The notes below the pieces were generated by a model that was not told the origin of the DNA, did no database searches, and saw only the letters and a list, made by a program, of their open reading frames with translations. The position numbers and the translations under genes are program-made. Positions 37,517-46,977 of a DNA stretch of 64,000 nucleotides are shown one piece after another; the stretch's first letter is position 1; the number at the start of each line of letters is the position of its first letter. Location of the stretch: the NCBI RefSeq assembly GCF_003144315.1, contig NZ_MPDK01000011.1:1-64000 (forward strand), given 5' to 3'. This DNA is from Sulfoacidibacillus thermotolerans (GTDB lineage Bacteria; Bacillota; Bacilli; Alicyclobacillales; SLC66).

Positions 37517-39847
37517 TTACTCGCGAGAATTCGCCACAATATAGAGATCGACAAAATCTGCGTGGGCCAATACGTAATCGATCGGGTTTCCCTGCAGTCG
37601 ACGAAGCCATTGAGTAGAGGGAAGAGGCTGACCTGTCACAAATTGTGAAATGCCAAGTTCCCCAGCCACCGCGACAATCGTAGCCCCTACCCCTTGTTCA
37701 AGCGCCCTACGTGTAATAAAGGTTGCCTCAAACTGCTGACTAAGTTTTTGAATGCGCAAGAGATCTCGCTGATCCTCCTCAGACAGAGACTCTTGAGTAA
37801 GAACGACAAGTACCCACAATTGCGCCTGCAAACGATCGGCTAAGCGCCACCCTCTGCGAATTAATTTTTCTGAATGCGGACGATGGTTGACTGCGACAAG
37901 GATACGCTCCTGCCGTGCAGAATCCGATTGTCCCTTATCAAGTTCGCGATCAAGTCGCTGATCCACATCATCTGCTACCTCTAAAAGCGCCAACTCGCGC
38001 AGGGCAGATAAATTGCCAATTTGAAAAAAGTGATCAAGCGCATGTTGAATCTTATCTTCTGAGTAAATTTTCCCATCAATTAATCGTTGTTGCAACGTTT
38101 CAGGGGTCACATCGATGAGTTTTACTTCGCGCGCTAATTTCATGAACCAATCAGGTACTCTCTCGCGTACTTTGACACCTGTAATGTGCTCTACTTTATC
38201 GTGTAAACTCTCCAGATGTTGAATATTTACGGCTGTGACCACATGGATGCCGTGGTCGAGCAAATATTCAATATCCTGATATCTTTTTTCACGTATACTC
38301 CCAGGTACATTGGAGTGCGCAAGCTCATCAATGATCACAATTTCGGGTTTGCGTTGCAAAATGGCATCCACATCTAAATCTTCATATAGTCTTCCCTGAA
38401 ATCGATGCAAGCGCTTTGGAAGCACTTCAAGATCCTCAATTTGCGCAGCCGTTTCAACTCGCCCATGAGTTTCGATTAATCCGATGACGACATCTTTTCC
38501 ACGTCGTCGCCAATCGTGGGCATCGCGTAGCATCTTGTACGTTTTTCCGACCCCAGGCGCAGCTCCCACATAGATCGTCAGTCTGCCTTTGCGCAACTCC
38601 CCCTTCATGGATGGCAAAGCTAGAGAAGTAGAGCGACTCTTTACAGGATCTAAGGGCTTAGGCCCACACACTTGCTCTCCCCTCTGGCTGTGGTGATCCT
38701 CTTTCCAACCCACAATGCGCACATCCATATACTTCATATGACGCAATAAATAGCGTACAGGCGCATCCTTCCAAAATCGCTTCCAGCGCTTCGCATGTGC
38801 TGGCTGCCCGATCACCACCTGTGTGACATTGCATCGCTCAGCCGTTTCAAGGATGGCTTTACCGATCGGTCTGTCATTTTGCGCTTCCAAAATCCACTCT
38901 GCGCCACAATCTAACGCGATTTGCTGCAGTTTATCCAGGCGTTCTTTCTCGCGGCCTTTTAGCTGACCCTCTCCCGTGTTAAAGACAGACAGCACATATA
39001 ATTCTGCCTTCATGCGCTGTGCCATACGATAGCCGCGTTGGATCAGTTGTACCGCGCGCGGTAGATAATTCACGCACACCATAATCGACTCGCGCGCACC
39101 AACTGGCCCTGGGATGCGCGATCGCGCATAAGAACGCTGCAATCGCTCATCTACGTCTTCTGCGACAAGACGCAACGCAAGTTCGCGCAATCCAAATAAG
39201 TTTGACTTACGAAAAAAATGCTCGAGTGCCTGATGAATTTTATCTGGCGGATAAATGCTGCCATCTCGCATCCGCTGGCGCAATGTCTCAGGTGTAACAT
39301 CAATGACTTCCACTTCTTGCGCACGTTTGACAAATGCAGCTGGAATTAACTCCTGCACGCGAATCCCCGTAATCTCTTGTGCCTCTTCATGAATTCCCTC
39401 GATGTGCTGAACATTCACAGCCGTTAAAACAGAAATCCCTTGATCAAGTAAGTACTCCACATCCATATAACGCTTAGGAAAAGTAGAGCCAGGCGCATTT
39501 GAGTGCGCCAGCTCATCAATCACGACCACATCAGGTTTACGTGCACAGATCGCTTCCAAGTCTACCTCTTCAAATCTCCGCCCACGATAGTGAATTACAC
39601 GCCGCGGAATCATCTCAAGTGGACCAATTTGCTCTTGGGTTTCAGGACGCCCATGTGTATCAATGTATCCAATCACAACATCTACACCGCGCTCGCGCAA
39701 GCGATTGGCCTCAGCCAACATCGTATACGTTTTTCCTACACCTGGCGCTGCACCGATAAATAACTTCAATTCACTGTCTGATCCACCACCGAACAATTCG
39801 TTTGCCATGTACTCTACTTCCATCACTTTCTGCTCTTCTTTTTTCAA
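37517..39847 (-). CDS. Tandem KdpD sensor/USP protein without kinase domain
   Basis: A 776-residue soluble protein built from two copies of the KdpD N-terminal half. Copy 1 has Walker A GAAPGVGKT at 32-40, DELAHSNAPG at 111-120 and a USP-like domain at about 253-380. Copy 2 has GAAPGVGKT at 428-436, DELAHSN at 507-513 and USP at about 648-773. A linker at about 385-420 joins them. There is no membrane segment, HisKA or HATPase. In S. aureus the KdpD USP domain binds cyclic di-AMP; whether these do is unknown. It is the last gene of the kdp operon, 17 bases after kdpC. The start may be the TTG at 39847 or ATGs at 39823 or 39808. The kinase half is encoded at 45367-46977. Confidence 0.92.
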   Translation of the reverse strand: MKKEEQKVMEVEYMANELFGGGSDSELKLFIGAAPGVGKTYTMLAEANRLRERGVDVVIGYIDTHGRPETQEQIGPLEMIPRRVIHYRGRRFEEVDLEAICARKPDVVVIDELAHSNAPGSTFPKRYMDVEYLLDQGISVLTAVNVQHIEGIHEEAQEITGIRVQELIPAAFVKRAQEVEVIDVTPETLRQRMRDGSIYPPDKIHQALEHFFRKSNLFGLRELALRLVAEDVDERLQRSYARSRIPGPVGARESIMVCVNYLPRAVQLIQRGYRMAQRMKAELYVLSVFNTGEGQLKGREKERLDKLQQIALDCGAEWILEAQNDRPIGKAILETAERCNVTQVVIGQPAHAKRWKRFWKDAPVRYLLRHMKYMDVRIVGWKEDHHSQRGEQVCGPKPLDPVKSRSTSLALPSMKGELRKGRLTIYVGAAPGVGKTYKMLRDAHDWRRRGKDVVIGLIETHGRVETAAQIEDLEVLPKRLHRFQGRLYEDLDVDAILQRKPEIVIIDELAHSNVPGSIREKRYQDIEYLLDHGIHVVTAVNIQHLESLHDKVEHITGVKVRERVPDWFMKLAREVKLIDVTPETLQQRLIDGKIYSEDKIQHALDHFFQIGNLSALRELALLEVADDVDQRLDRELDKGQSDSARQERILVAVNHRPHSEKLIRRGWRLADRLQAQLWVLVVLTQESLSEEDQRDLLRIQKLSQQFEATFITRRALEQGVGATIVAVAGELGISQFVTGQPLPSTQWLRRLQGNPIDYVLAHADFVDLYIVANSRE

Positions 39848-39864: not shown

Positions 39865-40440
39865 TTAACGTCGCGTGCCGATCTGTTTGACAATGGCCAT
39901 ATTCAATTGCATCACGTTGACCATAGGTTCTCCCCAGATGCCAAGTGTACGTCCAGTCGTAGAGTTTGTGATTAACTGCCGCAAATAAATCGGGCTTAAC
40001 CCTGAAGCCCTTGCAATACGTGGCACCTGCAAAAATGCGTCTTGAAGTGAGATATCAGGATCCAACCCAGAAGCAGAAGACTCGACCATGTCTGTAGGGA
40101 TCTGCGAAACCGCAATCCCTGGGTTTTGCCGTTCCACAACTTGCAAATTGTGATGAATTTCTGCGATTAACGCCGGATTTGTCGGCCCTAGGTTTGATCC
40201 CCCCGAATTGTTGGCCGCGTAGTTTACCGCAGAAGGTCGCGGATGAAATAGCCAAGGAACTGTTGTCATCTGTGCGATCAACTCAGAACCCACAATTCGT
40301 CCTCGCCAAGTAACCATACTTCCTTGTGCTTGATAAGGGAACAATAAATTCCCGATTCCCGTCACACACAACGGATACACGAACCCGAGTAAGACTGCAA
40401 ATACAATTGTAAACCGAAGTGCGCGCCAAAAATTCACCAT
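39865..40440 (-). CDS. kdpC: Potassium-transporting ATPase KdpC subunit
   Basis: A 191-residue subunit with one N-terminal helix (LRFTIVFAVLLGFVYPLCVTGIG) and an extracytoplasmic domain carrying VTWRGRIVGSELIAQ, FHPRPSAVNY, NNSGGSNLGPTNP and SASGLDPDIS, all KdpC hallmarks. The ATG at 40440 follows AAAGGGG by nine bases; a GTG seven codons upstream is possible. It assembles with KdpF, KdpA and KdpB. Confidence 0.95.
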   Translation of the reverse strand: MVNFWRALRFTIVFAVLLGFVYPLCVTGIGNLLFPYQAQGSMVTWRGRIVGSELIAQMTTVPWLFHPRPSAVNYAANNSGGSNLGPTNPALIAEIHHNLQVVERQNPGIAVSQIPTDMVESSASGLDPDISLQDAFLQVPRIARASGLSPIYLRQLITNSTTGRTLGIWGEPMVNVMQLNMAIVKQIGTRR

Positions 40441-40494
40441 TCTTGTATACCCCTTTATCACACAATCACTCGCTGATTTCTCATTGCAACCATC

Positions 40495-42549
40495 TTAGAC
40501 ATGCGCAAAACCAAGTGCCGTAATGAGAAGATCAATAAGCTTAATGCCAATAAACGGGGCAATCACACCACCGACGCCGTACAACAACAAATTGCGCAAT
40601 AGCAATGAGGTCGCACTCATGGGACGATATTGAACCCCTTTCATTGCTAGTGGAATTAGCATTGGGATAATGATGGCATTAAAGATCAACGCAGATAGAA
40701 TTGCACTTTGTGGGCTCGTCAAACGCATCACATTTAACGCTTGTAGACTTGGAATCATTTTCACGAAAATGGCAGGTATAATCGCAAAATACTTTGCTAC
40801 GTCATTTGCAATTGAAAATGTCGTAATTGCACCGCGCGTAATCAATAGCTGCTTGCCGATCGAAACCACTTCAATCAGCTTTGTTGGATCAGAATCCAAG
40901 TCCACCATGTTTCCTGCTTCTTTCGCCGCCATTGTCCCAGAGTTCATCGCCAAACCAACATCAGCCTGCGCAAGCGCGGGTGCGTCATTGGTGCCGTCGC
41001 CAGACATCGCCACGAGCTTCCCTTGTTCTTGCTCAGCTTTAATCAGTCGCATCTTGTCTTCCGGTTTAGCCTCTGCAATAAAATCATCGACTCCCGCTTC
41101 CTTAGCAATTGTCGCAGCGGTTAGAGGATTATCCCCTGTACACATCACCGTTTTAATTCCCATTCGGCGCAATTTTTCAAAGCGTTCACGCATTCCTGGT
41201 TTTACGATATCTTTTAAATAGATCAGACCATATACTTCTGTACCGCGTAGAACAGCAAGCGGCGTGCCCCCCTCTTTTGCAATTCCTTCTGTCTTTTGCG
41301 CGAGATCACTAGGGACACTTTCTCCGTGTTCTTCGACATAGCGGCGAATGGCATCCACTGCCCCTTTGCGATAGATCGTCCCATCGGCTAAATTCAGTCC
41401 ACTCATCCGAGTATCCGCGCTAAATTCTATATTTTCAGCGTCCGTATACGCCTCACGTGCGAATGAAACGCCACGTTCACGAGCTAAATCCACTACTGAG
41501 CGTCCCTCTGGCGTTTCATCAAACAGAGAAGAGATCACCGCAGACTCAATTAACTCTTTTTCTGTATGTCCCCCGACCGGAATAAATTCACTGGCTAATC
41601 GATTCCCAATTGTAATCGTTCCTGTTTTATCGAGGATGAGTGTATTGATATCGCCCGCTGCTTCCACCGCTTTCCCCGACTTAGCAATCACATTGAAACG
41701 GATCACACGATCCATACCTGCAATCCCAATTGCAGATAGCAAAGCTCCAATTGTCGTTGGAATGAGGCATACGAGTAATGCAATGAGCGTTGCAATGCCA
41801 ATGCTCCCATGCACATACGTTGCCATCGGCTCCAACGTATCGACAACAATCCCAAAAATAAGCGTAAGCCCCGCCAGAAGTACAGACAATGCCAGTTCAT
41901 TTGGCGTTTTTTGTCTGCTTGCCCCTTCTACTAGGCGAATCATTTGGTCGAGAAACGATTCGCCCGGGTCTACCTTCACCTGAATCATTAACTCATCGGA
42001 CAATAGTTTTGTCCCACCTGTCACGGAACTAAAGTCTCCCCCTGCACCGCGAATCACAGGTGCTGACTCGCCAGTTATCGCGGATTCATCAACACTTCCA
42101 AGTCCCTCCAAAACCTCTCCGTCCGCAGGAATCATATCTCCAGCAATCACCCGTACGATATCGCCTTTGCGAAGTGTTGTTGCTGGAACCACTTCATACT
42201 CGCCCGACGATTTCCTTCGTTGCGCCGTCAAATCTGTCTTTGCCTTGCGCAGCGAATCCGCTTGCGCTTTGCCACGTCCTTCCGCTACTGCCTCAGCAAA
42301 ATTGCCAAATAGAATCGTGATCAATAAAATGACTGCCACGAGCAGATCATATGTGCGCTGACCAGGATGGTGATAGCCGCCAAAGATCGTCGGATCTAGC
42401 GATAAAATACACGTAATAAGAAATCCAATTTCAACGACAAACATAACGGGATTGCGGATCAGAATGCGTGGATCTAATTTCACAAACGCCTCTCTGATCG
42501 CATGTGACACGATCTCGCCTGTCAAAGTTTTTGCAGACTGCTTAGCCAT
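40495..42549 (-). CDS. kdpB: Potassium-transporting ATPase KdpB subunit
   Basis: The P-type ATPase catalytic subunit, 684 residues. It shows the phosphorylation motif [14 protein letters not shown], a [13 protein letters not shown] actuator region, the TGESAPV loop, [30 protein letters not shown] and [31 protein letters not shown] precedes the ATG. Eighteen bases separate it from kdpA. Confidence 0.97.
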
Positions 42550-42567: not shown

Positions 42568-44280
42568 CTAATGACCGACTATATGGCTCATCATTTGCAA
42601 CTGTTCTCCGATGGGTCCAATCGCCAAAGCCGGAAAAAAAGTAAGGGCCCCAACGATGACAAACACCGCTACAAATACACTGCCAAATGCAAATGTGTCT
42701 GTTCGTAACGTTCCGCTCGTTTGTGGGATAATTGCTTTCTTCGCCAAGGAACCGGCAATTGCAAACATCGCAATGATCGATACATAGCGACCAAGCAACA
42801 TGACAATGCCAAGAGACAGATTGTAAAACACCGTGTTCCCGTTTAATCCTGCAAATGCAGACCCATTGTTTGCGGCAGCACTTGTAAAAGCATAAAGCAC
42901 TTCTGTAAACCCATGTAATCCTGGATTTAACATCGATGAGGTGCCCGCTTTTGTAACGACGGCGATTGCTGTCGGCACGAGGATCAAAAACGGATGCACA
43001 AGCATCGCAACAGTCGCCAATTTCATTTCACGCGCTTCGATTTTTTTCCCAAAGATCTCGGGAGTTCTCCCAACCATCAACCCTGAAAGAAATACAGTAA
43101 TTAAAAGAAACATCAGGATGTTTAATAAACCTACTCCTTTGCCGCCAAAAATGAGATTAAACATCATAAACAACAAGGGGACAAGTTGACTTAATGGCAT
43201 CAAACTATCGTGCATCGTATTCACCGCACCCGTCGTAAAGGCAGTCGTCATGGCAACAAAAGCGCTGCTAAGAGCGGGTCCAAACCGCCATTCTTTCCCT
43301 TCCATATTCGGGCCGCTCAAGCCAAGGGCTTGATGAACAAGTGGATTCCCACCAACTTCATTGGCATAAACAATAAATGCACCTATGATAAGAAGAGCGG
43401 TCAACAGAACATAGAGCACAACTGCTTGGCGACGATTTGCGATAAATTTCCCAAATGTCGCAAGTAAAGCTGTCGGAATCAAACCCATCGCAATCATTTC
43501 AAGTACTGAAGTGAGCGCTGTAGGATCTTCAAAAGGATGCGCCGAATTGGCATTAAAAAAGCCACCACCATTTGTCCCTAGCTGCTTGATCGCTTCAAGT
43601 GATGCGACAGGACCCCGTGAGATCGTCTGCGTAGACCCTTGTAACGTATGAGCAATTTGCGCACCAAGTAGTGTCTGAGGTACCCCTAAGCCAACGAGTA
43701 CAACAGCAAACACGACGGCAAGTGGCAACAAAACGCGCGTATGCACCTTAATTAAGTCCACCCAAAAATTTCCCAAAGATTCCGACTTATGTGCGACCAG
43801 CCCTCGCAAAAAAGCAATAGCTGCCACAAATCCCGTTGCAGCAGACGTGAATTGTAAATAGGTAATCGCGAGCATCTGTCCGAGATAAGACATAGATTGT
43901 TCGCCTGCATAATTTTGCCAATTTGTATTTGTGATAAAACTCGCTGCTGTATTAAACGCCAAATCCCAACTCATCCCTGGAATGTGATCTGGATTAAACG
44001 GCAAGATGCCTTGTAAACGAAAAATCAGGTAAGCAAAGATCATCATCATGAAATTGACAAGCATCAGCGCGCGCAGATACGCTTTCCAATCCATTTGCAC
44101 GGAGGGATTTACCCCCACCAACCGATAGAGAAGTCGCTCAAACGGAGCAAAAACCGCTTCAAATCTGCTGTGTCCACCCGTAAATACACGATATAAATAG
44201 CCCCCAAACGGAATTCCCAGTCCTAGAATGATTGCAATAATCGCCAAAATCCCGATCGAACCGGCTACAGTAAACCTCAT
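42568..44280 (-). CDS. kdpA: Potassium-transporting ATPase KdpA subunit
   Basis: The potassium-binding channel-like subunit, 570 residues, with about ten helices. Selectivity-loop segments seen are NTNWQNYAGEQ near residue 115, LGTNGGGFFNANSAHPFEDPT near 230, a loop near 345 and SAAANNGSAFAGL near 465. RBS AGGAG precedes the ATG. First large gene of the kdpFABC operon. Confidence 0.97.
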   Translation of the reverse strand: MRFTVAGSIGILAIIAIILGLGIPFGGYLYRVFTGGHSRFEAVFAPFERLLYRLVGVNPSVQMDWKAYLRALMLVNFMMMIFAYLIFRLQGILPFNPDHIPGMSWDLAFNTAASFITNTNWQNYAGEQSMSYLGQMLAITYLQFTSAATGFVAAIAFLRGLVAHKSESLGNFWVDLIKVHTRVLLPLAVVFAVVLVGLGVPQTLLGAQIAHTLQGSTQTISRGPVASLEAIKQLGTNGGGFFNANSAHPFEDPTALTSVLEMIAMGLIPTALLATFGKFIANRRQAVVLYVLLTALLIIGAFIVYANEVGGNPLVHQALGLSGPNMEGKEWRFGPALSSAFVAMTTAFTTGAVNTMHDSLMPLSQLVPLLFMMFNLIFGGKGVGLLNILMFLLITVFLSGLMVGRTPEIFGKKIEAREMKLATVAMLVHPFLILVPTAIAVVTKAGTSSMLNPGLHGFTEVLYAFTSAAANNGSAFAGLNGNTVFYNLSLGIVMLLGRYVSIIAMFAIAGSLAKKAIIPQTSGTLRTDTFAFGSVFVAVFVIVGALTFFPALAIGPIGEQLQMMSHIVGH

Positions 44281-44302: not shown

Positions 44303-44380
44303 CTAAAATTGTTCAGGATGGAAAATGACATAGGTCAAATAGCCCATCACGCCCACAGAAAGGACCAGCAATACCCACAT
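44303..44380 (-). CDS. kdpF: KdpF, small stabilising subunit
   Basis: A 25-residue single-helix peptide (MWVLLVLSVGVMGYLTYVIF, then HPEQF). The YL-x-hydrophobic-PE-x-F ending is the KdpF signature; the family peptide stabilises the KdpABC complex. AGGGGG lies seven bases before the ATG. It sits 22 bases upstream of kdpA. Confidence 0.87.
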   Translation of the reverse strand: MWVLLVLSVGVMGYLTYVIFHPEQF

Positions 44381-44391
44381 TGAAATTCCCC

Positions 44392-44475
44392 CTAAACCTT
44401 ATCAAATACCCGAAAAATCACGTAAAATAGGCCAAATATCAAAAAAAACAATAAAAAAGAGAAGATATCCCCCAT
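44392..44475 (-). CDS. 27-residue hydrophobic peptide before kdpF
   Basis: ATG at 44475 with GGGGG about seven bases upstream, reading one helix (FSFLLFFLIFGLFYVIFRVF) that ends in DKV. It stops 11 bases before kdpF. I recall small hydrophobic ORFs upstream of kdpF in other bacteria, including a gene called kdpZ in A. acidocaldarius, but I cannot confirm homology. A Kdp accessory peptide is the likely reading. The codons are very TTT-rich, and the start and spacing look genuine. Confidence 0.55.
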   Translation of the reverse strand: MGDIFSFLLFFLIFGLFYVIFRVFDKV

Positions 44476-44705: not shown

Positions 44706-45392
44706 TCATTGAAAGTCTTTGAACCGATAGCCGATCCCAGGTTCCGTAAGAATCAGCGTCGGCCTCGTGGGATCATCCTCCAATTTTTTGCGCAAATGCC
44801 CGATATAGACTCGCAGATAATGTGCGGTCGCCTCTGAATTCTGCTCTCCCCACACTTCTTTTACAAGTTGATGATGGGTTAATACTCGACCTGCGTGCAA
44901 TACGAGCGTCTTTAATAAATCGTACTCGATCGGTGTGAGACGAACCAATTGCCCTTGTTTCTCTACCACTCGACGCGCCAAATCCATCTGCACATCGCCA
45001 ATCTGCAAGACTGGCTCCGTGAGCGCGTGTGCGGCATGTCGCAAGGCTACCCGAATTCGCGCGACCAGTTCCCCCATCGCAAACGGCTTTGTCATATAAT
45101 CGTCAGCCCCAGAATCGAGAATGGTCACAGTCTCAGACTCTTTGTCACGAACTGTAAGTACAATGACAGGAAGTTGCGACCACTCACGGATTTGCCGTAA
45201 TACCTCAGCGCCATCCAAATCGGGCAATCCAAGGTCAAGTACTGCTAAATCTGGCCGCTCCATCGCCACAGAAACAAGTCCATCCGCCCCCGTTCCTGCT
45301 TCGATTACAGTGAATCCATGAGCTTGTAAGGTGACTTTTAGTAATTTTCGAATCTGCAGTTCATCGTCAATCACTAAGATTTTTGCGCCCAT
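44706..45392 (-). CDS. kdpE: KdpE-type response regulator
   Basis: A 228-residue OmpR-class regulator. Receiver motifs are ILVIDDE at the N terminus, LAVLDLGLPDLDG with the phosphoacceptor Asp near residue 52, and the conserved TKPF. A C-terminal winged helix has LTPIEYDLLKTLVLHAGRVLTH and HLRKKLEDDPTRPTLILTEPGIGYRF. The ATG at 45392 follows AGGAGGAG and overlaps the kinase gene by 26 bases. It should activate the kdp operon downstream. Confidence 0.95.
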   Translation of the reverse strand: MGAKILVIDDELQIRKLLKVTLQAHGFTVIEAGTGADGLVSVAMERPDLAVLDLGLPDLDGAEVLRQIREWSQLPVIVLTVRDKESETVTILDSGADDYMTKPFAMGELVARIRVALRHAAHALTEPVLQIGDVQMDLARRVVEKQGQLVRLTPIEYDLLKTLVLHAGRVLTHHQLVKEVWGEQNSEATAHYLRVYIGHLRKKLEDDPTRPTLILTEPGIGYRFKDFQ

Positions 45393-46977
45393 CCCCGCTC
45401 TCCTCCTGGCTTTCGGCAATCGGCAACTGAATGACCATACGGATACCCGTTGGCACTTTACGCCTAGCGAAGATCTGCCCACCATGTGCCTCGACAATTC
45501 CTTTGCAGATCGCGAGACCGAGTCCAGTGCCAGGAATTCGTTTTGCTGACTCCGCACGGTAAAACTTATCGAATATTTTCTCCTCTTCACCCTCTGGAAT
45601 GCCGATTCCTTCATCTTCAACAATTATGACAGCAACCCCATCTTGCTCTCTCACCTGGATGTCAATCTGACTGCCATCGAATGAATACTTTACCGCGTTA
45701 CTCAAGATATTGACAAGCACTTGTTCGATCAATACGTCATCGACATAAAAAGGAGGCAGCTCTGCAGGCATCTGGATCTGCACCTTTCGTCGCAAAAGCG
45801 GATCTTGCAACTGGCGCAAAACTACGCCAAGCATATCAGCTACATCACATAAACGCCGTCGTAATGTCAACATACCACTTTCCAAGCGGACCATGCCTAA
45901 CAAGTTGGTCACTAATCGATTCATGCGCATCGCACTATCGCGGATTGTAAACAGTAAATCGCGCTGGTCCTCTGGACTAAGTACCTCTGCATGTTCGATC
46001 ATTCCCGTTACAGAACCGATAATGCCAGCAAGCGGCGTGCGTAACTCATGTGAAATCGAATCGAGCAACGCCGTGCGCAATCGTTCAGATTCTGCAGATA
46101 GACGCGCAATCCGCGCCTCCCGCTCTAATTGAATACGTGCAACTGAGACGGTCGCCAATCCGACAAACGCTTCGACCAAGTGCTGTCTCACCCCAATCCC
46201 TTCATGAAGATCTGAGGTTGCACCAATGACCAAAACACCTCGGACAACTTCCTCCGTCTTCAGAAGAAAATAGCGTGCAGCTTCGCGAGAAAAATTTTCT
46301 GTTCCCAGTCCAGCCGATTTGCCATTTTGAAGTACATAGAGACAAGCATCAACACACAAATCACTCTCAGCTAATGCACAACGTTCGACCCCTACATCAT
46401 GCAACGGTTCCATGAAATCCTTTTTCACACATCCATAGGCATCTCCCTTAGGAAGCACAATCCACACAGGTGCATGGAATGTATCTGCGACATGCGAGAC
46501 AATTGCTGTAGCCATGTCATCAAGATCATCGAGAGCCGTCATACGTTTGCTTAACTGGTATAAAGAAGCCGTGTCTGCTTCGCGCTGCTGAGATTCATAC
46601 ACCTGCTGACGCAGACGAAAGGCGAGTGTCGCTGTAAGAATCGCCACGACTAAAAACACAGCAAAAGAAATCAAGTAACGCAAATCACTTACAGAAAAAC
46701 TGAAAATAGGCGGGACAAAAAAATAGTCAAATGCAACCACACCCACAGCAGCTGCATAGATGGAAGGCCCAACCCCCCATCTCGTCGCGCTAAAAAGGAC
46801 CGGAAGTAAGAATAACAGTGCAATGTTTGCCAGTTGAAATGAGAGACCCACTTTCAACAAAGCCAATGTCAGCAGTCCGATCGCGACGGTGACCAGTAAA
46901 TAAGGCCACACTCCTTGGTTTAAACGTTCGCTTTTTTTGCGACGAACCTCCACCTTTGTTCCCTCAAATCTTTCCAC
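45367..46977 (-). CDS. C-terminal (membrane/kinase) half of a split KdpD
   Basis: A 536-residue histidine kinase equal to the second half of standard KdpD. Four helices at about residues 25-120 (DUF4118, with FDYFFVPP) are followed by a GAF-like region (about 145-285), HisKA with SISHELRTPLAGIIGS (His310), and HATPase with NILSNAVKYS, DEGIGIP and GTGLGLAI. The KdpD sensor and USP domains are missing here; they are supplied, in duplicate, by the separate protein at 37517-39847. The gene precedes kdpE with overlap. Confidence 0.94.
   Translation of the reverse strand: MERFEGTKVEVRRKKSERLNQGVWPYLLVTVAIGLLTLALLKVGLSFQLANIALLFLLPVLFSATRWGVGPSIYAAAVGVVAFDYFFVPPIFSFSVSDLRYLISFAVFLVVAILTATLAFRLRQQVYESQQREADTASLYQLSKRMTALDDLDDMATAIVSHVADTFHAPVWIVLPKGDAYGCVKKDFMEPLHDVGVERCALAESDLCVDACLYVLQNGKSAGLGTENFSREAARYFLLKTEEVVRGVLVIGATSDLHEGIGVRQHLVEAFVGLATVSVARIQLEREARIARLSAESERLRTALLDSISHELRTPLAGIIGSVTGMIEHAEVLSPEDQRDLLFTIRDSAMRMNRLVTNLLGMVRLESGMLTLRRRLCDVADMLGVVLRQLQDPLLRRKVQIQMPAELPPFYVDDVLIEQVLVNILSNAVKYSFDGSQIDIQVREQDGVAVIIVEDEGIGIPEGEEEKIFDKFYRAESAKRIPGTGLGLAICKGIVEAHGGQIFARRKVPTGIRMVIQLPIAESQEESGDGRKNLSD

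Follow-up and report, generated by a model that had tools for sequence, protein, structure and literature searches.

Tandem KdpN, largely the usual form in the order Alicyclobacillales, keeps two intact KdpD kinase sites and is a candidate two-site kinase of KdpB

The window analysed here, a stretch of 64,000 nucleotides from Sulfoacidibacillus thermotolerans, contains a gene (37517..39847; ORF list, Pfam and NCBIfam) whose product has the make-up (KdpD domain + Usp) x2. It raises the question of what such a doubled chain does beside the genes of a potassium pump, and why both of its copies are kept. This gene and all other features of the window given below lie on the minus strand. We refer to the product as tandem KdpN, KdpN being, as we take it, the name of the split-KdpD product of Alicyclobacillus acidocaldarius. 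The protein has 776 amino acids when read from its TTG start, and the true start may be an ATG at codon 9 or 14.

In Pfam, PF02702 matches twice within the one frame (E 2.1e-181). The first KdpD (PF02702, ASK) domain, d1 (39152..39775, genome profile search), carries the Walker A motif GAAPGVGKT at residues 32-40 (39728..39754; sequence and alignment), followed by Tyr41, and Walker B Asp111-Glu112 (39512..39517), aligned with E. coli D109/E110. The second, d2 (37964..38590; Pfam and genome profile search), repeats Walker A at residues 428-436 (38540..38566; sequence and alignment), followed by Tyr437, and by alignment has its Walker B at Asp507-Glu508 (38324..38329). The DELAHSN motifs occupy residues 111-117 and 507-513, in agreement with the preliminary description, which had read two KdpD halves with both motifs intact in a single ORF. 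It had also placed a Usp domain in each half. The second one (residues 646-776, 37520..37912) is supported by Pfam, alignment and fold; protein and genome profile searches agree in calling Usp in this half only. The first (residues 251-383, 38699..39097) falls below the Pfam threshold and is evident from its alignment with the second Usp, as a homolog, and from the predicted fold. Between the two modules lies a linker (residues 384-418, 38594..38698) with pLDDT <50 in the AlphaFold model. As described previously, the chain has no membrane or histidine kinase part: the Pfam listing contains neither a membrane domain nor HisKA or HATPase, which places the chain outside the sensor histidine kinase KdpD. 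In NCBIfam it is matched twice (920 bits, cut-off 550) by NF038185, "KdpD-like non-kinase potassium sensor", a model of 373 positions. Since it holds two modules per frame rather than a single one of ~370 aa, we regard it as a variant of this short KdpD and not as a plain member.

The tandem gene closes a one-strand kdp cluster in the order kdpZ-like, kdpF-like, kdpA, kdpB, kdpC, tandem gene. Pfam assigns kdpC (39865..40461), 17 nt upstream of the tandem gene, kdpB (40495..42549) and kdpA (42568..44280). KdpB contains T159-G160-E161-S162, and the codon of Ser162, the presumed target, is at 42064-42066. A 25-aa ORF (44303..44380) was assigned as kdpF-like by eye and place. The 27-aa hydrophobic ORF in front of it (44392..44475) is called kdpZ-like from its place, which by name and place is presumably that of kdpZ in A. 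acidocaldarius. Just upstream of the cluster, on the same strand, are the genes of a separate membrane histidine kinase (45367..46977; DUF4118, HisKA and HATPase_c by Pfam and NCBIfam) and of the response regulator KdpE (44706..45623, Pfam), the true start of which is probably downstream of the listed TTG. Promoter and terminator scans were at chance level (13 vs 14.0 and 10 vs 9.8, respectively).

We then looked at how common this architecture is in a sample of 61 genomes: the window's own, 58 others of its order and two of its class. A profile search found PF02702 above the cut-off in 39 of the 61. By hand tally, the pair of modules to which the window's tandem belongs, here T1, is present in 37 of these 39; it is fused in one frame in 33 genomes, the window's included, and forms two neighbouring genes in eight, four of which also have a fused copy. 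In the remaining two PF02702-positive genomes we observed only a tandem of a second family, T2 (G010), and a broken remnant (G018). The search for double-PF02702 proteins lacking a histidine kinase part, as proposed in the preliminary description, returned fused chains from 33 genomes of the order. An assembly artefact or a recent tandem copy was rejected, since the two halves are 46.6% identical (354 columns), the same architecture occurs in 33 genomes and the pair is found in 37 of the 39 PF02702-positive ones. For the same reason, and because a putative A. acidocaldarius genome is among those 37, the tandem is largely the usual KdpN of this order. The fused duplicate had been presented as unfamiliar. 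This does not hold within the order, where it is the standard form, putatively in A. acidocaldarius too. Within the literature that our searches covered, we saw no description of a doubled KdpD form; the 2006 study of the split kdpD or the domain tables of PMC11018627 (KdpD of 5495 species) may contain one, and the main text of PMC11018627 lacks the words "duplicat", "two KdpD" and "fused". The tandem architecture itself is the rule in the order, and the unusual point is that both kinase sites are kept intact. In one genome (G044), both kdp loci (L061 and L062) have the tandem gene in one frame but a fragmented kdpB, of 429+246 aa and 201+228+246 aa. Another locus (L069, G052) has a fused tandem followed by an unfused pair, four consecutive modules in all.

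According to excerpts of PMC11018627, KdpD was reported in 2024 to phosphorylate KdpB on Ser162; the N-terminal domain of E. coli KdpD is sufficient for this reaction, which needs Walker A, D109, E110 and the adenine pair W39/R190. The same excerpts describe that a short KdpD/Usp chain from Deinococcus phosphorylates KdpB and that c-di-AMP stimulates it. Each copy of the window tandem shows the two motifs expected of a KdpD serine kinase, with G-X5-GKT as Walker A and Asp-Glu as Walker B, and keeps the equivalent of R190 (Arg192). All 36 other fused T1 loci, two of them repeat fetches of one contig, retain Lys and Thr of Walker A, Asp-Glu of Walker B and the Arg in each copy. Among 15 unfused T1 copies, Lys, Asp, Glu and Arg are found in 15/15 and Thr is replaced by Ser in one. 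Where E. coli has its stacking W39, Tyr is found in both window copies, in the 15 unfused modules except for a Phe in one, and in 23/23 single short chains examined. As for the target, KdpB ORFs above 400 bits in the loci contain TGES in 101 cases and lack it in five, all of them pieces of 246-404 aa.

We therefore consider it probable, by analogy with these KdpD proteins, that tandem KdpN acts as a serine kinase with two sites, phosphorylating Ser162 of KdpB and shutting KdpFABC. The conserved catalytic sites, the retained target Ser and the position of the gene 17 nt behind kdpC argue for it, as do points taken up below: the lost Glu of full-length KdpDs that have a separate chain in their locus, the age of the duplication, the predicted Usp pair and the diadenylate cyclase genes. 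The Tyr in place of W39, the missing c-di-AMP motif (see below), the Glu losses in full-length KdpDs with no such chain and the three of 33 fused loci where kdpC is not found nearby argue against it. A soluble two-site atypical serine kinase (ASK) would be co-produced with the pump that it restrains. With ATP bound by its Walker motifs, each KdpD domain would, at ample potassium, phosphorylate Ser162 of the KdpB TGES loop and so halt KdpFABC. The two Usp domains may pair within the chain as a pseudodimer, through which the kinase sites would receive their switching signal, and transcription would be left to the separate histidine kinase and KdpE. The domain make-up, the gene order, the conserved kinase sites and target Ser and the old duplication are results from the sequences; the Ser162 kinase activity of the tandem, the Usp-Usp pairing, the need for both sites and the identity of the ligand are inferred. 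Another substrate is conceivable for either site or for both.

Gene order bears on a different target. The preliminary description had suggested the separate histidine kinase, on which the tandem chain would act in trans; taken as the missing input half of a split KdpD, the chain would tune transcription through KdpE. We fetched 33 fused T1 loci from the sample besides the window: in 26 of them kdpC precedes the tandem gene by at most 350 nt or overlaps it, in four it is 0.77-1.84 kb upstream, and HK-kdpE is divergent in many, an order mostly at odds with this suggestion. Some loci do point in its direction. In the three where kdpC was not found near the fused gene (L069, L071, L073), the kinase gene or HK-kdpE adjoins the tandem gene and the pump genes are absent from the fetched stretch, and in five others (L036, L056, L061, L062, L075) the tandem gene or split pair stands between kdpC and the kinase gene on one strand. 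In addition, the Pfam listing of the window's histidine kinase, encoded in the same region, contains neither PF02702 nor Usp, its match to the NCBIfam KdpD model begins at model position 390, and the NF038185 family is named a non-kinase potassium sensor. Nevertheless, the activity demonstrated for the module, in excerpts of PMC11018627, is the phosphorylation of the KdpB Ser, and in one genome (G007) the paired chains occur alongside a full-length KdpD with an input domain of its own, a degenerate one. Action in trans on the histidine kinase is thus quite unlikely, and we retain KdpB as the probable target.

To place the two copies, we built a tree of 148 module sequences, from which near copies and ends (L046, L047, L049, L052, L062, L077, L079, L098, L071, L073), eight T2 loci (L090-L095, L101, L102), most full-length KdpDs of the contig scan described below and the cut d2 of L068 were dropped; the residue counts given here do include the fused T1 and T2 loci among these. 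One clade (SH-aLRT 100) holds the first modules of T1 (28 fused, 8 unfused), another (SH-aLRT 100) the second ones (28 fused, 7 unfused); the two clades join (95), next to four single short KdpD chains from Bacilli (98). A careful tree of 65 rows agrees, with 100/100 for each T1 clade, 100/94 for their union and 100/97 with the single chains. Since d1 and d2 are sister clades in both trees, one old duplication, which a short chain underwent at an early stage of the order, would explain the pair, and split pairs are scattered among the fused ones. Both copies have been kept in the order d1-d2 since before the lineages of A. acidocaldarius and the window separated. Two old, separate clades that both retain catalytic residues are also what one would expect if one module had shifted to a second protein substrate, a transporter or regulator, and the other phosphorylated KdpB; given that the gene is near kdpC in 26/33 fused loci, we regard such a division of labour as highly improbable.

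The second tandem family, T2, occurs in Paenibacillaceae, in Bacillus methanolicus and in five genomes of this order (loci L031, L034, L037, L042, L044, L080-L083, L085-L097, L099, L101, L102 and L163-L165). Its chain also comprises two KdpD-Usp modules (758-841 aa), and kdp genes adjoin it in most loci. Within the order, its neighbour in three genomes (G002, G006, G013) is a second, divergent kdp operon; in G010 it is near kdpA close to a contig end, and in G001 no kdp gene was found within the 14 kb fetched. T2 modules form clades of their own (100), and a single origin of the tandems, tested as a clade of T1 d1 with T2 d1, was weakly rejected (p-AU 0.029, T2 d1 being a long branch). The first T2 modules have no Walker B Glu in 28/28 cases (Gly in 19, Asp in 8, His in 1) and the second ones have it in 28/28. 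T2 is in this respect a natural pseudokinase-kinase pair, a Glu-less KdpD domain fused to an intact one.

A similar loss was observed in full-length KdpDs of Bacillota that share a locus with a separate chain: the Glu is missing in 4/4 (Gly, Asn, Arg and Asp), namely L039:12065-14734, L091:9359-12046, L088:2-1429, which is cut by the locus end and was read by eye, and L163:2459-5212. This count covers Bacillota only; L125 (Mycolicibacter) is excluded, and L133 and L136 are second copies outside it. In L125, a second full-length KdpD with Asp for Glu lies beside an intact one. As a control we took 29 long, non-tandem KdpD frames (>=670 aa) from Bacillota genomes in which no separate chain was found; Glu is kept in 23 and lost in six, and the difference between 4/4 and 6/29 gives a Fisher p of 0.005, not corrected for kinship. 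Loss of Glu is therefore possible without a partner, as these six lone proteins indicate. Second copies often lose the kinase site, and T1 retains both.

These observations bear on the simplest account of the duplication, in which it serves dosage or redundancy, both copies doing the same job with the same input. The catalytic residues are indeed alike in both copies, and the comparison of 36 first with 35 second modules revealed only six positions fixed (>=90%) to differing residues. One of the six, however, is Arg264 (codon 39056-39058, first Usp domain; 36/36 first modules) versus His658 (codon 37874-37876, second Usp domain; 35/35 second modules), which by motif spacing lie at the place of Tyr248 of S. 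aureus, a c-di-AMP contact in excerpts of PMC8214093. Together with the decay of second copies elsewhere (T2 first modules 28/28, full-length KdpDs beside a chain 4/4) and the survival of both T1 copies in the same order since before the A. acidocaldarius/window split, this makes plain redundancy unlikely, and we keep to a kinase in which both sites would be used.

Other tandems exist. Among 299 genomes of the phylum (the window's included), in many of which scoring covered only nine first-look candidates, at least five others have a one-frame tandem in which the first copy is weak (205-229 bits). Further tandems were sought in contigs with the peptide APGVGKTY, and those given here are among the matches listed; the scan favours an intact Walker A, as this peptide was the only query. 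In 146 genomes of the Cyanaurora phylum, 52 were above the cut-off and four, two of them already in our set, have a one-frame tandem (L084, L100, G437, G465), with both Walker B Glu present. A tandem from Dormiibacterota has a degenerate second copy. The Cyanaurora/Melainabacteria-type tandems L084, L100, L166 and L167 retain both Walker B Glu, like T1, and are possibly a separate two-site form; the Cyanaurora, Melainabacteria and Dormiibacterota rows are long branches, of unsure placement in the tree.

The preliminary description had imagined an intramolecular dimer of the two sensor units. We modelled tandem KdpN with AlphaFold from 17 sequences (4 T1, 11 T2, 2 others), which gave pLDDT 76.7 and pTM 0.67, the value on which the placement of the domains rests. 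The second kinase domain superposes on P. syringae KdpD 2r8r (Z 26.5, rmsd 2.0, 207 residues), the second Usp on 7ji4, a KdpD Usp with c-di-AMP bound (Z 14.2, rmsd 2.1, 124 residues), and the first Usp (residues 252-383) on Usp 3tnj (Z 14.0, rmsd 2.4, 114 residues). Both Usp domains together match the tandem-type proteins UspE, Rv2623 and TTHA0350 (Z 18.3-21.2, 226-251 residues, rmsd 3.1-3.9), the contact being judged by superposition only. A model of a T2 tandem (pLDDT 74.6, pTM 0.61), the alignment of which shares 11 rows with that of T1, places its Usp pair in the same way (Z 17.3-21.3, 222-255 residues, rmsd 3.1-4.2). AlphaFold may pair two like domains of one chain by habit. The dimer therefore stands as a prediction, that of an internal Usp-Usp pair within one tandem chain, on which two models agree. 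Fold matches of the two models also include KCC/NKCC/NCC transporters (Z 12.7-15.9), whose cytosolic parts hold Usp-like pairs.

What the Usp domains bind can be approached through the c-di-AMP motif of KdpD, (A/G/C)XSXSX2N in the beta1-alpha1 loop according to excerpts of PMC8214093. Scored on four positions, Tyr/Phe271 excluded, this excerpted motif reaches three positions in 0/28 d1 and 0/28 d2, with a best score of two in d1 and one in d2 (28 rows each). At the Ser244 position, 28/28 second modules have Asn and the first ones Ser, Asn or Gly. The full motif is also missing from the single cyanobacterial chains in our rows, and the KdpD of Synechococcus elongatus, outside these rows, binds c-di-AMP (excerpts of PMC8214093), so that absence of the motif is compatible with c-di-AMP binding. 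The genome has two diadenylate cyclase genes and three c-di-AMP riboswitches. A riboswitch in front of kdp was sought and discarded: none lies in the 30-52 kb part of the window, and the three are elsewhere in the genome.

One may tentatively go further and imagine a two-input, two-site kinase: the Usp domains would form an asymmetric pair that reads two different ligands (e.g. c-di-AMP and ATP or AMP) and sets two active kinase sites on KdpB, T2 would follow the same plan with a pseudokinase and a kinase, and a kinase pair would have been built from KdpD modules more than once in evolution. We hold this extension to be possible but doubtful. The tandem forms are in any case natural experiments, T1 with two intact sites, T2 with a Glu-less and an intact one, and full-length KdpDs that have a separate chain in their locus with the Glu lost in all four observed; they may reveal if the kinase operates in pairs and which part Usp plays.

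Among known systems, the closest is that of A. acidocaldarius, for which Schleussinger et al. reportedly described a split kdpD in 2006. The putative genome of this species in our sample (G021) has the same tandem gene behind kdpC, alike in domain make-up, with d1 55% and d2 61% identical to those of the window; its HK-kdpE is divergent, unlike that of the window, which precedes the cluster on one strand with it. The short KdpD/Usp chain of Deinococcus geothermalis, compared by description and represented by NF038185, resembles the window's chain in having KdpD and Usp without a membrane or histidine kinase part. It is single, whereas the window's chain is doubled, and it is for the single form that a response to c-di-AMP is reported in excerpts of PMC11018627. 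T2 differs from T1 of the window by its first module, which lacks the Walker B Glu, and by its separate clades. The ASK domain of E. coli KdpD shares Walker A G-X5-GKT, Walker B DE, the Arg190 equivalent and the KdpB Ser162 target with the window protein, which in contrast is a soluble tandem with Tyr for Trp39 and has no K+-sensing membrane/GAF part. Finally, the tandem-type Usp proteins UspE, Rv2623 and TTHA0350 are like the predicted Usp pair, both halves superposing at once; unlike in these proteins, the two Usp domains of the window are split in sequence by a kinase domain, and their pairing is a predicted one.
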